64,000 nt of DNA, from contig NZ_MJUX01000001.1 in assembly GCF_001927245.1 (NCBI RefSeq), forward strand, positions 1,178,001 to 1,242,000, given 5' to 3'. Within the stretch, counting starts at the first letter, position 1, and each line of letters starts with the position of its first letter. Under the pieces are notes generated by a model. That model ran no database searches, was not told the DNA's origin, and saw only the letters and a program-made list of their open reading frames with translations. Origin of the DNA: Acuticoccus yangtzensis. GTDB taxonomy: Bacteria; Pseudomonadota; Alphaproteobacteria; Rhizobiales; Amorphaceae. Of the stretch, positions 4,154 to 9,767 are shown piece after piece. A program made the translations under genes and the position numbers.

Positions 4154-5050
4154 TCAGGCGACGTCGCGCAGGGCGGCGTGGGCCGGCTGGACCGCTTCGG
4201 CATAGGCCTCGATCAGCGTCTTGGTGATCGCGCCCGGCACGAAGCTGTAGGGCCCGATCTCGCCGACCGGGGTCACCTCGGCGGCGGTGCCGGTGAGGAA
4301 GCACTCCTCGAAGTCCGCCATCTCCTCCGGCATGATCGTGCGCTGGTTCACCTCGATGCCGCGCTCGCGGGCGAGGCGGATCACGGTGCGGCGGGTGATG
4401 CCGTCCAGGAAGCAATCGGGCGTCGGCGTGTGGATGACGCCGTCCTTGATGAAGAAGACGTTCGCGCCCGTCGCTTCGGCGATGTGGCCGCGATAATCGT
4501 ACATCAGCGCGTCCTGGTAGCCCTTCGACTCCGCGGCGTGCTTGGACAGCGTGCAGATCATGTAGAGGCCGGCGGCCTTGGCATGGCACGGGATGGTGCG
4601 CGGATCGGGGCGCCGCCAGTCGGAGATGTCGAGGCGGATGCCCTTCTCGCGCAGGGCCGGGTCGAAATAGGACGGCCAGGCCCAGGCGGCGATGGCGACG
4701 TGGATCGAGTTCTTCTGCGCCGAGACGCCCATCATCTCCGACCCGCGCCAGGCGATCGGACGGACATAAGCGTCGGTCAGACCCATGCGTGCCACGGTTT
4801 CCCGCTTGGCAGCATTAATGGCTTCCTTGCTATAGGGCATCTGGAACCCGAGAGCTTCAGCGGAGGCGAAGAGACGGTCGGTATGCGCCTCGCACTCGAA
4901 AATCGAGCCGCCATAGGCGCGCTCACCCTCGAATACGGCGCTGCCATAGTGCAGCCCGTGGGACAGAACATGCAGCTTCGCATCTTTCCATTCCACGAAC
5001 GAGCCGTCGAACCAGATTTCACCCTCATGCTGATCGAAAGGAAGAGCCAT
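4154..5050 (-). CDS. ilvE: branched-chain amino acid aminotransferase
   Basis: PLP enzyme of fold type IV that transaminates the keto acids of valine, leucine and isoleucine. The 298-residue product has the family start region (GEIWFDGSFVEWKDAKLHVL), the SHGLHYGSAVFEGERAY segment and the glutamate-containing SKGYQDALMYDYRGHIAEAT block. I use the ATG at 5050 (MALPFDQHEGE), preceded by GGAGACT, rather than the longer open frame to 5107. It is divergent from a MarR gene and followed by a strong terminator, so it is probably monocistronic. Confidence 0.92.
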   Translation of the reverse strand: MALPFDQHEGEIWFDGSFVEWKDAKLHVLSHGLHYGSAVFEGERAYGGSIFECEAHTDRLFASAEALGFQMPYSKEAINAAKRETVARMGLTDAYVRPIAWRGSEMMGVSAQKNSIHVAIAAWAWPSYFDPALREKGIRLDISDWRRPDPRTIPCHAKAAGLYMICTLSKHAAESKGYQDALMYDYRGHIAEATGANVFFIKDGVIHTPTPDCFLDGITRRTVIRLARERGIEVNQRTIMPEEMADFEECFLTGTAAEVTPVGEIGPYSFVPGAITKTLIEAYAEAVQPAHAALRDVA

Positions 5051-5187
5051 CTTTTTAGTCTCCAATGGCGCGCATTTCGCCTGTTGCAGCGCGTGCGTAT
5101 GAAACAACCCGTCCGCGCAATATTATTTCTCAAAGCCCCACCTAAACGACAGAATAGCGCGTTTGAGAGGGTGCTGAGGTATGCGAA

Positions 5188-5694
5188 ATGTCGCGAAACG
5201 TCAATATGGTTGACCTGAAAAAAATCTCCGGGCCGGACCCGGAGCTTTCCCTTGCACTGATCGAAGGCATGTTCTTCGGCTATCGTGATTTCGTCGGCAT
5301 CGCCGACGACCGTCTCGACGAGCTGGGTTATGGCCGCGCCCACCACCGTGTGTTGCATTTCGTCGACCGCCATCCGGGGCTGACGGTGGGCGAGCTCCTC
5401 GGCATTTTGAAGGTGACCAAGCAGGGCATCTCGCGCGTACTTAAGACTTTGGTCGATGATGGGCTGATCGAAGTGCGGCCCGGCCCGTTTGACCGGCGCG
5501 AGAAGCGGCTTCAGACCACCGAGGCCGGTCACGCCCTGGCGCGCGAGGTGGTGGCGATCCAGTCGGCGCGCATCGAGAAGGCGTTGAAGGCGGCGGGACC
5601 CGGTGCGGCAGAAACGGTCTTTGCCTTTCTCGCCGGGCTCGTAGACGATGAGGATCGCGCCGCGGTGCAGCGGCGGATCGAAGGCGGACGGTAG
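5188..5694 (+). CDS. MarR-family transcriptional regulator
   Basis: A 168-residue protein with a MarR winged helix: LTVGELLGILKVTKQGISRV forms the helix-turn-helix around residues 68-87, followed by the wing DGLIEVRPGPFDRREKRLQTT and the TEAGHALAREV helix. GAGG precedes the ATG. The gene is divergent from ilvE across a 137-base, relatively AT-rich region in which both promoters must lie. It is 48 bases upstream of a two-component pair, an arrangement also found in other Rhizobiales. The ligand is not predictable. Confidence 0.88.
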   Translation: MSRNVNMVDLKKISGPDPELSLALIEGMFFGYRDFVGIADDRLDELGYGRAHHRVLHFVDRHPGLTVGELLGILKVTKQGISRVLKTLVDDGLIEVRPGPFDRREKRLQTTEAGHALAREVVAIQSARIEKALKAAGPGAAETVFAFLAGLVDDEDRAAVQRRIEGGR

Positions 5695-5742
5695 GCAACG
5701 CGGCGTTCGCGCGGCGGAGAGGCGACGATAAGGGCAAGGCCG

Positions 5743-6465
5743 ATGGCTGTGGGAGCGCACGCCCTCTCGGGCGAACCGCGGCACGACGATGACGCGCCGC
5801 ACATTCTGGTGGTGGACGACGACCAGCGCATCCGGTCGCTGCTGGAGCGTTTTTTGCGCAAAGAGGGCTTCCGCGTCACCGCGACGGCGGACGCGACCGA
5901 AGCGCGCCGCATCCTCGGCGGCTTCGTGTTCGACGCCGCGGTGCTCGACGTCATGATGCCGGGCGAGGACGGGCTTTCGCTGCTCGGCCACATGAAAGAG
6001 TCCTACGAGACGCCGGTTCTGATGCTGACCGCGCTGGCGGAGGCGGAAAACCGCGTGCAGGGCCTGTCGCTCGGCGCCGACGACTATCTCGGCAAACCAT
6101 TCGAGCCGCGCGAACTGTCTCTGCGGCTGAAGAACATGTTGCGCCGCCGGCCGGATACGGCGCGCATCGTCACCTTCGGTCCCTTCCGCTACGACGTGAA
6201 GCGCGAGGAGCTGACCACCGACGGCGAGACGGTGCGGCTCACCGAGCGTGAAAAACGCCTCCTGCGAATGCTCGCCTCCCGGCCCGGTGCCACGGTGCCG
6301 CGCCAGGACCTCGTCGCCGACGAGCAGCTCGGCGACCGGGCGATCGACGTGCAGATGAACCGCCTGCGCCGCAAGCTGGAGGCGGACCCCGCCGAGCCGC
6401 GTTATCTGCAAACCGTGCGCGGCCTCGGCTACCGGCTCGTCGCCGACATCGCGGACGGCGCGTGA
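5743..6465 (+). CDS. OmpR/PhoB-family response regulator
   Basis: A receiver domain (ILVVDDDQRIRSLLERFLRK) with the expected phosphoacceptor Asp at about residue 69 (AVLDVMMPGEDG) and the conserved lysine in DDYLGKPFEPREL. It is followed by a winged-helix DNA-binding domain ending in LEADPAEPRYLQTVRGLGYR, the OmpR class signature. The stop overlaps the start of the histidine kinase gene (GTGA), so the two form a translationally coupled two-component system. The pairing resembles EnvZ/OmpR-like systems of Rhizobiales; the signal is unknown. Confidence 0.93.
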   Translation: MAVGAHALSGEPRHDDDAPHILVVDDDQRIRSLLERFLRKEGFRVTATADATEARRILGGFVFDAAVLDVMMPGEDGLSLLGHMKESYETPVLMLTALAEAENRVQGLSLGADDYLGKPFEPRELSLRLKNMLRRRPDTARIVTFGPFRYDVKREELTTDGETVRLTEREKRLLRMLASRPGATVPRQDLVADEQLGDRAIDVQMNRLRRKLEADPAEPRYLQTVRGLGYRLVADIADGA

Positions 6466-7841
6466 GCCTCGCCTCGCAGCCCTACCGGCGGCCCTTGTGG
6501 CGGCGCGTGCTGCGCTGGGCGGGCCTTCCGCCGCCGATCGAGCGGTGGCTGAGGAAGCGCCTGCCGCGGCGCCTCTTCGCGCGGTCCATCCTCATCATCG
6601 TGCTGCCGATGCTGGTGCTGCAATCGGTCGTCGCCTTCGTGTTCCTGGACCGGCATTGGGAGAACATGACCGTGCGCCTGTCGCAGGCGACGGCGCAAGC
6701 GGTGGCGGCGACGGTCCAGGCGGTGGAGACCGCGCCCGACGAGGCCGAGCGCGAGCGTTATCTCAGGATTGCCCGCAACACCGGTTTCGACCGTGTGGTG
6801 ATGCTGGACGACGACACCCTGCCCTCGCGCCGCCCCGCGGGGTTCTTCAACCTCCTCGAATATACCCTGTCGCGCCAGCTCCGGCGCGAGGTGGGGCGCC
6901 CCTTCTGGATCGATACCTTCGACGACAACCGCTACGTCGAAATCCGCGTCGAGACCTCCGTCGGCATGATGGCCTTCGTGACGCGGCGCAGCTCAACCTA
7001 TGCCTCCAACGCGCACATCACCTTGGTATGGATGGCGGGGACGTCGCTGGTGCTGATCGCCGTGGCGGTCTTGTTCCTGCGGGGCCAGGTGCGGCCGATC
7101 CAGGAGCTGGCGGCCGCCGCGCAAAAGTTCGGCCAGGGGCGCCCGGTCGGCCGCCTGCGCCCGCACGGCGCCACCGAGGTTCGCCAGGCGACCGGCGCCT
7201 TCCTGGAGATGAAGCACCGCATCGAGCTGCAGATCGAGCAACGCACGGCGATGCTGGCGGGTGTCAGCCACGACCTCAGGACCATGCTCACCCGCTTCCG
7301 CCTGGAGCTGGCGCTGATGGAGCAGACCGACGACGTCGCCGCCCTCTCCGCCGACGTGGTGCAGATGCAGAAGATGCTGGAGGATTATCTCCAATTCGCC
7401 CGCACCGATTCCGACGAGCCGGCGGAAGACGTGTCGATCGCCGACCTCATCGAGGACGCGGCGCGCGGGATGGAGGACATCGACATCCAGGTCCCGCCGG
7501 GCCTCGCGGCGACGGTGCGCCCGACCGCCACGCTGCGGATGATCGCCAACCTGATCGGCAATGCGGACAAGCATGCGGCGCGCGTGAGGGTGACGGCGCG
7601 GCGCGAGGGCAACCTCCTCGTCATCGACGTGGACGACGACGGGCCGGGCATCCCGGAGGCCAAGCGGGTGCTGGTGTTTCAGCCCTTCGTGCGGCTGGAG
7701 GGGGGGCGCAATCAGGACACGTCCGGCACCGGGCTCGGCCTCACCATCGCGCGGGACATCGCCCGGCGGCAGGGCGGCGACATCAGCCTGAGGGAGAGCC
7801 CGCTCGGCGGTTTGCGCGCGCGGGTGAAGCTGCCGATCTGA
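6462..7841 (+). CDS. EnvZ-like sensor histidine kinase
   Basis: A 459-residue inner-membrane kinase. Two membrane helices (about residues 42-62 and 186-206) flank a periplasmic region of roughly 120 residues. A HAMP linker, the phosphoacceptor block GVSHDLRTMLTRFRLELALM (His at about 270) and a catalytic ATPase domain follow, with MIANLIGNADKHA, DVDDDGPGIPE and DTSGTGLGLTIARD as the N, G1 and G2 boxes. The usual proline of the SHDLRTPL motif is methionine here. It is coupled to the preceding response regulator by a GTGA overlap. Confidence 0.93.
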   Translation: MSLASQPYRRPLWRRVLRWAGLPPPIERWLRKRLPRRLFARSILIIVLPMLVLQSVVAFVFLDRHWENMTVRLSQATAQAVAATVQAVETAPDEAERERYLRIARNTGFDRVVMLDDDTLPSRRPAGFFNLLEYTLSRQLRREVGRPFWIDTFDDNRYVEIRVETSVGMMAFVTRRSSTYASNAHITLVWMAGTSLVLIAVAVLFLRGQVRPIQELAAAAQKFGQGRPVGRLRPHGATEVRQATGAFLEMKHRIELQIEQRTAMLAGVSHDLRTMLTRFRLELALMEQTDDVAALSADVVQMQKMLEDYLQFARTDSDEPAEDVSIADLIEDAARGMEDIDIQVPPGLAATVRPTATLRMIANLIGNADKHAARVRVTARREGNLLVIDVDDDGPGIPEAKRVLVFQPFVRLEGGRNQDTSGTGLGLTIARDIARRQGGDISLRESPLGGLRARVKLPI

Positions 7842-7931: not shown

Positions 7932-7960
7932 TTGCCCTCCCCCGGCCCCGCCGGTACATA
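7932..7960 (+). promoter_or_regulatory. sigma-70-type promoter of leuL-leuA
   Basis: A -35 box TTGCCC (7932-7937), a 17-base spacer and a -10 box TACATA (7955-7960). Transcription would start about seven bases later, on or next to the A of the leader peptide ATG at 7967, which would make the leader mRNA leaderless. Confidence 0.65.
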
Positions 7961-7966
7961 GCGGAT

Positions 7967-8065
7967 ATGACATTCGCGACGTCCATCCCGCGCCGTTCGC
8001 CGCCCTCCGGGCCGGCCGCGCGTCCGGCCGTCGGCATTCTCCTCCTTCTCCTTATTTGCCCCTGA
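7967..8065 (+). CDS. leuL: leucine leader peptide of leuA (attenuator)
   Basis: A 32-residue open frame too short for a standard ORF listing, ending VGILLLLLICP and then TGA. Five consecutive leucine codons (CTC CTC CTT CTC CTT) and two isoleucine codons flanking them sit at the position expected of a leader peptide that senses charged leucyl-tRNA. There is no Shine-Dalgarno sequence, but the predicted transcription start coincides with the ATG, so translation would be of the leaderless kind known for the trp leader peptide of Sinorhizobium. leuA starts 121 bases after the stop. Attenuation of leuA is established in other alphaproteobacteria; here it is inferred from the sequence. Confidence 0.75.
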   Translation: MTFATSIPRRSPPSGPAARPAVGILLLLLICP

Positions 8066-8178
8066 GCGTCGGCGGTCCGGCACACGGGCGCACGTTCAGG
8101 GGATGATCGAAGCCAGAGCGAAACCGATCATGCGGTCCTGCGCGCCGATGGCCTGACGCCTCGCGCCGCCGCCCGAGG
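8026..8178 (+). promoter_or_regulatory. candidate attenuator pairings in the leuA leader
   Basis: The segment GGCCGTCGGC (8026-8035), just before the leucine codons, can pair with GCCGATGGCC (8144-8153) over ten positions, including one G-U pair. A second copy, CGTCGGC (8067-8073), just after the leader stop codon, can pair with the same downstream arm. CCTCG (8159-8163) can also pair with CGAGG (8174-8178), which overlaps the leuA ribosome binding site. These pairings are mutually exclusive in part. There is no T-run, so the switch may act on translation or through Rho rather than by an intrinsic terminator. No folding was computed. Confidence 0.45.
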
Positions 8179-8186
8179 AGACTCCG

Positions 8187-9767
<1,581 letters not shown>

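Follow-up and report, generated by a model that had tools for sequence, protein, structure and literature searches.

The window analysed here is a stretch of 64,000 nucleotides from the genome of Acuticoccus yangtzensis, and all positions are counted from its first letter. It carries leuA, whose product matches the profiles NF002087 (820 bits) and TIGR00973 leuA_bact (662 bits), both in excess of the cut-off, and contains the Pfam domains HMGL-like and LeuA_dimer. As a preliminary description of this DNA had stated, a frame with five successive leucine codons precedes the gene; its translation is MTFATSIPRRSPPSGPAARPAVGILLLLLICP, with ILLLLLICP as the C-terminal end before the stop codon. The stretch directly upstream of the leader (4154-7841) holds a divergent gene resembling, by eye, a branched-chain aminotransferase, a MarR-type regulator at 5188, and, at 5743-7841, an OmpR-type response regulator together with a histidine kinase, which end 125 nt 5' of the leader. 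Every feature that the preliminary description named lies where it had been placed. The features referred to below are as follows.

7932-7960, plus strand: promoter-like sequence, TTGCCC at 7932-7937, a 17-nt spacer and TACATA at 7955-7960 (sequence)
7967-8065, plus strand: leader peptide reading frame, 32 codons, from ATG at 7967 to TGA at 8063-8065 (sequence; C-terminus homologous in relatives)
8029-8035 and 8067-8073, plus strand: two copies of CGTCGGC (sequence)
8038-8044, plus strand: 5' arm of the closing stem H1, UCUCCUC (minimum-energy fold, duplex energy, co-adaptation)
8039-8053, plus strand: five Leu codons, CTC CTC CTT CTC CTT, followed by A (sequence)
8059-8102, plus strand: hairpin H2, CCCCUGAGCGU at 8059-8069 with ACGUUCAGGGG at 8092-8102 (covariation, fold)
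8103-8131, plus strand: hairpin H4, AUGAUCG at 8103-8109 with CGAUCAU at 8125-8131 (folds of the Acuticoccus leaders L081-L087)
8132-8172, plus strand: hairpin H5, immediately 5' of the Shine-Dalgarno sequence inside the H1 junction (folds of L081-L087)
8144-8153, plus strand: GCCGATGGCC, the arm proposed in the preliminary description (not conserved)
8175-8181, plus strand: 3' arm of H1, GAGGAGA, which is the leuA Shine-Dalgarno region (fold, duplex energy, co-adaptation)
8187-9767, plus strand: leuA, 2-isopropylmalate synthase, 526 amino acids (profile matches)

LeuA relatives were drawn from 80 named contigs, mostly of Hyphomicrobiales, from the genus Acuticoccus and from an order-wide sample; seven other Acuticoccus genomes were compared, A. 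mangrovi being the closest named relative. With few exceptions, the Hyphomicrobiales loci examined carry, 5' of leuA, a short frame that ends in Leu-Leu-Leu-x-x-Pro-stop and has hairpin H2 behind it. A homologous C-terminus before leuA is shared by 105 Hyphomicrobiales leaders, each of them an open frame with a start codon (105/105), and is also found across the class. Of 177 leaders, 172 have CTT as their last Leu codon, against a background of 3.4% of the Leu codons within Hyphomicrobiales leuA genes, and 175 have A as the base directly after that codon, though the residue varies. The two conserved Leu codons upstream of the last one vary at the third position, as expected of translated codons. 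Among the leaders compared, the peptide shows no conservation over its N-terminal two thirds, where codon-position patterns gave no information on constraint owing to the differing lengths of the leaders, the conserved part being the C-terminal stretch from the Leu run to Pro, and this part is under constraint at the RNA level in that it tracks pairing and not amino acids. The near-invariance of CTT-A (8051-8054) extends over the class despite a varying pairing register with the Shine-Dalgarno sequence.

A covariance model of 70 leader cores (R1) has one match in this genome at an E-value of 7.6e-15, the next best lying at 5.2, and it matches 51 of 190 alphaproteobacterial genomes, at a single place in each and in many families beyond Hyphomicrobiales; the 29 R1 loci that were fetched first all adjoin leuA on its 5' side. 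A broader model (R2) run on 299 genomes of the phylum yields 58 matches. LeuA is encoded downstream of all 45 further alphaproteobacterial primary matches fetched from both searches, but not downstream of the five matches outside Alphaproteobacteria (L264-L268) or of a secondary match in one genome (G076, L269), all six of which we therefore rejected as chance. Since LeuA follows the primary matches of the class and is absent from the five outside it, the element looks confined to Alphaproteobacteria in the genomes sampled, its bearers including Methylobacterium, Microvirga, Bosea, Devosia and Paracoccus. In one family of the same order (f23) R2 matches none of the 12 listed genomes, G031 and G278 among them; one genome of this family that was examined has LeuA only in a divergent form (best E 1e-42).

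The hairpin H2 begins on the end of the leader frame, with both Pro and stop codon inside its 5' arm. Its core is CCCCUGAG:CUCAGGGG, three further pairs extend the arms to their full length in the window, and an inner hairpin spans 8072-8091. Of 110 Hyphomicrobiales sequences, 97-100% have standard base pairs at the eight core positions. In alignment A1 of H2, double-sided changes occupy 101 cells as compared to 36.8 after shuffling, the covariation score of 0.325, as compared to 0.169, is reached by 0 of 500 shuffles, and the signal is lost when the partner strand is slid; the covariation is repeated in the class-wide alignment A2. Compensatory changes turn the stop codon TGA into TAG, TAA or TGG and the Pro codon CCC into the Leu codon CTC, with pairing retained in each case, and by these substitutions compensation in the stem is shown to override the coding sequence. 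Why, then, would the leader end on proline? Because the stem changes override coding while pairing is kept, the terminal Pro is most readily explained as a side effect of the RNA stem. H2 has in addition conserved, partly unpaired bases (YYGG, C and GGGC), and conservation of its interior is limited to Hyphomicrobiales, other orders being divergent there.

The second pairing, H1, joins the Leu-codon run to the leuA Shine-Dalgarno region, with a duplex energy of -11.9 kcal/mol in the window. The sequence CTCCTT is close to the anti-Shine-Dalgarno sequence, and some pairing with any Shine-Dalgarno sequence comes free of cost. Because such baseline pairing is expected, we chose a swapped-partner test, in which each leader's Leu run is paired with its own leuA ribosome binding site (RBS) and with RBSs swapped between genomes. 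In the first genome set the own duplex comes to -12.20 and the swapped one to -10.63 kcal/mol, a permutation z of -6.93, which like the other z values of this test is uncorrected for phylogeny; the baseline is supplied by control windows, whose 29 other pairs lie between z -3.6 and +1.6 and leave the Leu-run/RBS pair the strongest. The second set, 59 leaders mostly from other orders, gives -11.67 for own and -9.61 kcal/mol for swapped partners (z -5.91, likewise uncorrected), and the Leu-run/RBS pair is again the strongest, among 24 window pairs. In LRL-type leaders, where Arg CGA replaces a Leu codon, the RBS has changed too, and these leaders pair better with their own class of RBS; in L192, for example, UCCUUCGA pairs with UCGAAGGA. 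The potential of the Leu run to pair with the leuA Shine-Dalgarno sequence is shown by these comparisons to be under selection, the register of H1 varying between lineages. Blocking the Leu run in 105 leaders raises the computed accessibility of the RBS from 0.37 to 0.50, a larger effect than that of control blocks, which give 0.40 and 0.36 (p 1.8e-6).

A different arrangement had been pictured in the preliminary description, in which the two CGTCGGC copies, one before the Leu codons and one after the leader stop, compete for GCCGATGGCC. This arrangement does not hold up in comparison: all three parts occur together in this genome only, the first copy and the GCCGATGGCC arm are missing in the seven other Acuticoccus genomes, and the post-stop copy shows no co-adaptation with downstream sequence (t = 0.73). 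The pairings that carry evidence are the stop-codon hairpin H2 and that of the Leu run with the leuA Shine-Dalgarno sequence. Two other statements of that description fared better: the usual T-run terminator is indeed absent, no intrinsic terminator being detected on the leuA strand, and the suggestion that the switch could act on translation is supported by the conserved pairing of the Leu run with the leuA Shine-Dalgarno sequence.

A fold of 8037-8195 has the stem 8038-8044:8175-8181 enclosing hairpins at 8059-8102, 8103-8131 and 8132-8172, and in Acuticoccus H1 is thus predicted to close a junction that contains H2, H4 and H5. Most of the leaders L081-L087 fold alike in H1 and H2, although some have H1 in a partly displaced or shortened form. 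A fold of the window's sequence with its full leader pairs the Shine-Dalgarno sequence with upstream leader sequence instead, and for this single sequence blocking the Leu run does not free the Shine-Dalgarno sequence. H4 has changed in sequence but kept its pairing in L087; as a general element it was rejected, as there is no folding excess across Hyphomicrobiales (mean z -0.16). The sequence of H5 is poorly conserved.

We infer that the leader regulates leuA, and we consider the element to be probably a cis-acting, leucine-responsive translational attenuator of this gene. When leucyl-tRNA is plentiful, the ribosome would complete the leader and depart, the Leu codons would pair with the Shine-Dalgarno sequence, and translation of leuA would be low. 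When leucyl-tRNA is scarce, the ribosome would stall on the Leu codons and mask them, so that the Shine-Dalgarno sequence would be freed and leuA translated. H2 would draw the two arms of H1 together, and the effect may be strengthened by Rho if leuA mRNA that goes untranslated is lost through its action. The best reading of the Leu codons is that they would serve in both roles, as leucine sensor and as complement of the leuA Shine-Dalgarno sequence. A point against translational attenuation comes from the actinobacterial leuA leader, in which mutations of the Leu codons gave results inconsistent with classical attenuation, according to work as cited in PMC1262725.

Could the leader instead act on transcription, its translation deciding over Rho-dependent or pause-linked termination before leuA? 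A leader peptide with a hairpin on its stop codon does resemble classical attenuators, and where a T-run is missing, as here, Rho is commonly proposed (PMC1262725). However, the best-supported second pairing reaches the RBS and not a terminator arm, and conservation is lacking between H2 and the RBS, where the first 42 nt are devoid of folding excess in Hyphomicrobiales (mean z -0.16), so that we regard transcription attenuation without an intrinsic terminator as unlikely. It is decidedly improbable that H2 serves as a platform to which a protein or small molecule binds, with the leader peptide in a secondary role. The conserved, partly unpaired bases of the hairpin and the near-invariant CTT-A would suit such a platform, yet the interior of H2 diverges outside Hyphomicrobiales, as a ligand pocket would not; the Leu codons still vary in the manner of coding sequence, and all 105 leaders have an open frame with its start codon.

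The start of the transcript bears on a further alternative. The promoter described earlier, TTGCCC-N17-TACATA, is present at its place and would start transcription at the leader ATG or within 1-2 nt of it, but it falls under the threshold of a consensus scan. TACATA-N6-ATG is shared by L082 and L083, a TA-rich -10-like hexamer starts 12 nt (L081-L083) or 14 nt (L084-L087) 5' of the ATG, and no Shine-Dalgarno sequence is visible before the leader ATG in these seven Acuticoccus leaders; a Paracoccus leader has TATAGT 13 nt 5' of its ATG. The leaderless start that had been proposed is therefore plausible in Acuticoccus. Of 134 leaders, however, 23 have a -10-like hexamer beside a candidate start as compared to 18.9 +/- 3.6, which is not above chance, and leaderless initiation is for this reason not a defining property of the element; a class-wide leaderless promoter was rejected. 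With a leaderless mRNA in mind, action in trans had been suggested as well, through a leader peptide or small RNA as in peTrpL/rnTrpL of Sinorhizobium. Apart from the -10-like element 12-14 nt 5' of the ATG in the seven Acuticoccus genomes, this proposal found no support and is very improbable: the peptide is unconserved beyond a C-terminus whose residues track RNA pairing, no terminator is present that would release a small RNA, and a -10 element near the ATG is not enriched class-wide. As for a chance Leu-rich frame in the GC-rich spacer, open frames being common in GC-rich DNA, its probability is next to nil, for it is refuted by class-wide conservation, covariation and position before leuA, and the recurrence before leuA, the CTT bias of the last Leu codon and the R1 match in this genome place the frame well beyond chance.

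The closest known system is the LEU element of Actinobacteria, in which the Leu-run codons of a leader pair with the leuA Shine-Dalgarno sequence around a pseudoknot, and for which a binding protein was proposed (Seliverstov et al. 2005, PMC1262725); the leuA leader of Streptomyces lividans is leaderless and without terminator (MRFGLLLLSCRGEGL, PMC8079986). On paper the alphaproteobacterial element would work like it, since both have a Leu-run leader frame directly upstream of leuA, a base stem that the Leu-codon run forms with the Shine-Dalgarno sequence of leuA (here from fold and co-adaptation) and no intrinsic terminator. It differs in its hosts, which belong to another phylum, in its hairpin, which begins on the Pro and stop codons of the leader, and in that most alphaproteobacterial elements sit before another type of LeuA. 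In a test of the post-stop strand, which shows no co-adaptation with downstream sequence, a pseudoknot of the actinobacterial type was not found. In the only actinobacterial leuA leader compared, that of Tsukamurella (L216), a UUCUC:GAGAA stem between Leu run and RBS closes a hairpin; R2 does not match this leader.

Other systems share single traits. The attenuator of the enterobacterial leu operon (Rfam Leu_leader) likewise has a Leu-codon leader peptide before leuA and uses ribosome stalling, but it attenuates transcription by a U-run terminator, which is absent here. In erm-type translational attenuators (ermCL-ermC) stalling in an upstream frame also uncovers a downstream Shine-Dalgarno sequence; there, however, stalling depends on a drug, whereas here scarce leucyl-tRNA is the expected cause and the stalling codons themselves would be the sequestering strand. 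The trpL leader of Sinorhizobium meliloti is likewise an amino acid leader frame that precedes a biosynthetic gene and may be leaderless, but peTrpL derives from an attenuator of transcription by which a small RNA is set free (PMC7298713), and both such a terminator and a conserved peptide are absent from the leuA leader. In the open literature searched, no alphaproteobacterial counterpart of the LEU element was found named; an RNA-motif screen of Agrobacterium tumefaciens and its relatives lists a leader peptide of ilvB and leaves leucine unmentioned.

In Rfam scans of the window no family covers the element, and Leu_leader is without a match at cut-offs of E 10 and of E 1. Only RF02466 exceeds chance level; this family (Ms_AS-8), curated in Rfam as an actinobacterial antisense sRNA, matches the minus strand of the window weakly (E 0.0045, far under the gathering score). 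Its strong matches (84 bits; L161:1799-1872, L162:1798-1869, also L159, L160 and L163) lie on plasmids of Gordonia and Rhodococcus and adjoin IS256-family transposase genes on their upstream side. A LEU-like pseudoknot has been reported in a Bifidobacterium longum transposase related to those of the IS256 family (Seliverstov 2005, PMC1262725). We rejected RF02466 as an antisense of the actinobacterial LEU element, as its strong matches track the transposase genes, and for the same reason its match in the window was not used as evidence of homology.

Taken together, the element looks like an uncatalogued leucine-sensing switch acting on translation. If so, among uncatalogued controls of leucine synthesis it would be the main one over much of a large bacterial class, and its design would be economical, with one stretch of codons acting both as amino acid sensor and as antisense strand over the downstream RBS, a dual role that we found described for Actinobacteria only. 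It would also offer a simple and testable system for the study of terminator-free translation control by stalling, and with a curated family the leader frame could be called in automatic annotation.

The CTT-A motif and parts of the internal loop of H2 are more conserved than sequestration alone requires, and in one family (f53) the element precedes another type of LeuA, with 26-33% identity to that of the window. The latter suggests that the leader persisted and the gene following it was substituted, or else that the leader has moved. As a tentative reading that we hold possible rather than likely, an ancient leuA leader RNA may be common to Alphaproteobacteria and Actinobacteria, with the gene behind it swapped between two LeuA types, and with a further function of CTT-A and the hairpin interior, beyond covering the RBS, through interaction with the ribosome, with a protein or with a nuclease. 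The partial LeuA from one f53 locus (L242) has its best match to NF002991/PRK03739, and non-orthologous LeuA resembling PRK03739/leuA_yeast is found at the f53 loci L239, L241, L242, L244, L248, L254, L256, L259 and L261-L263.
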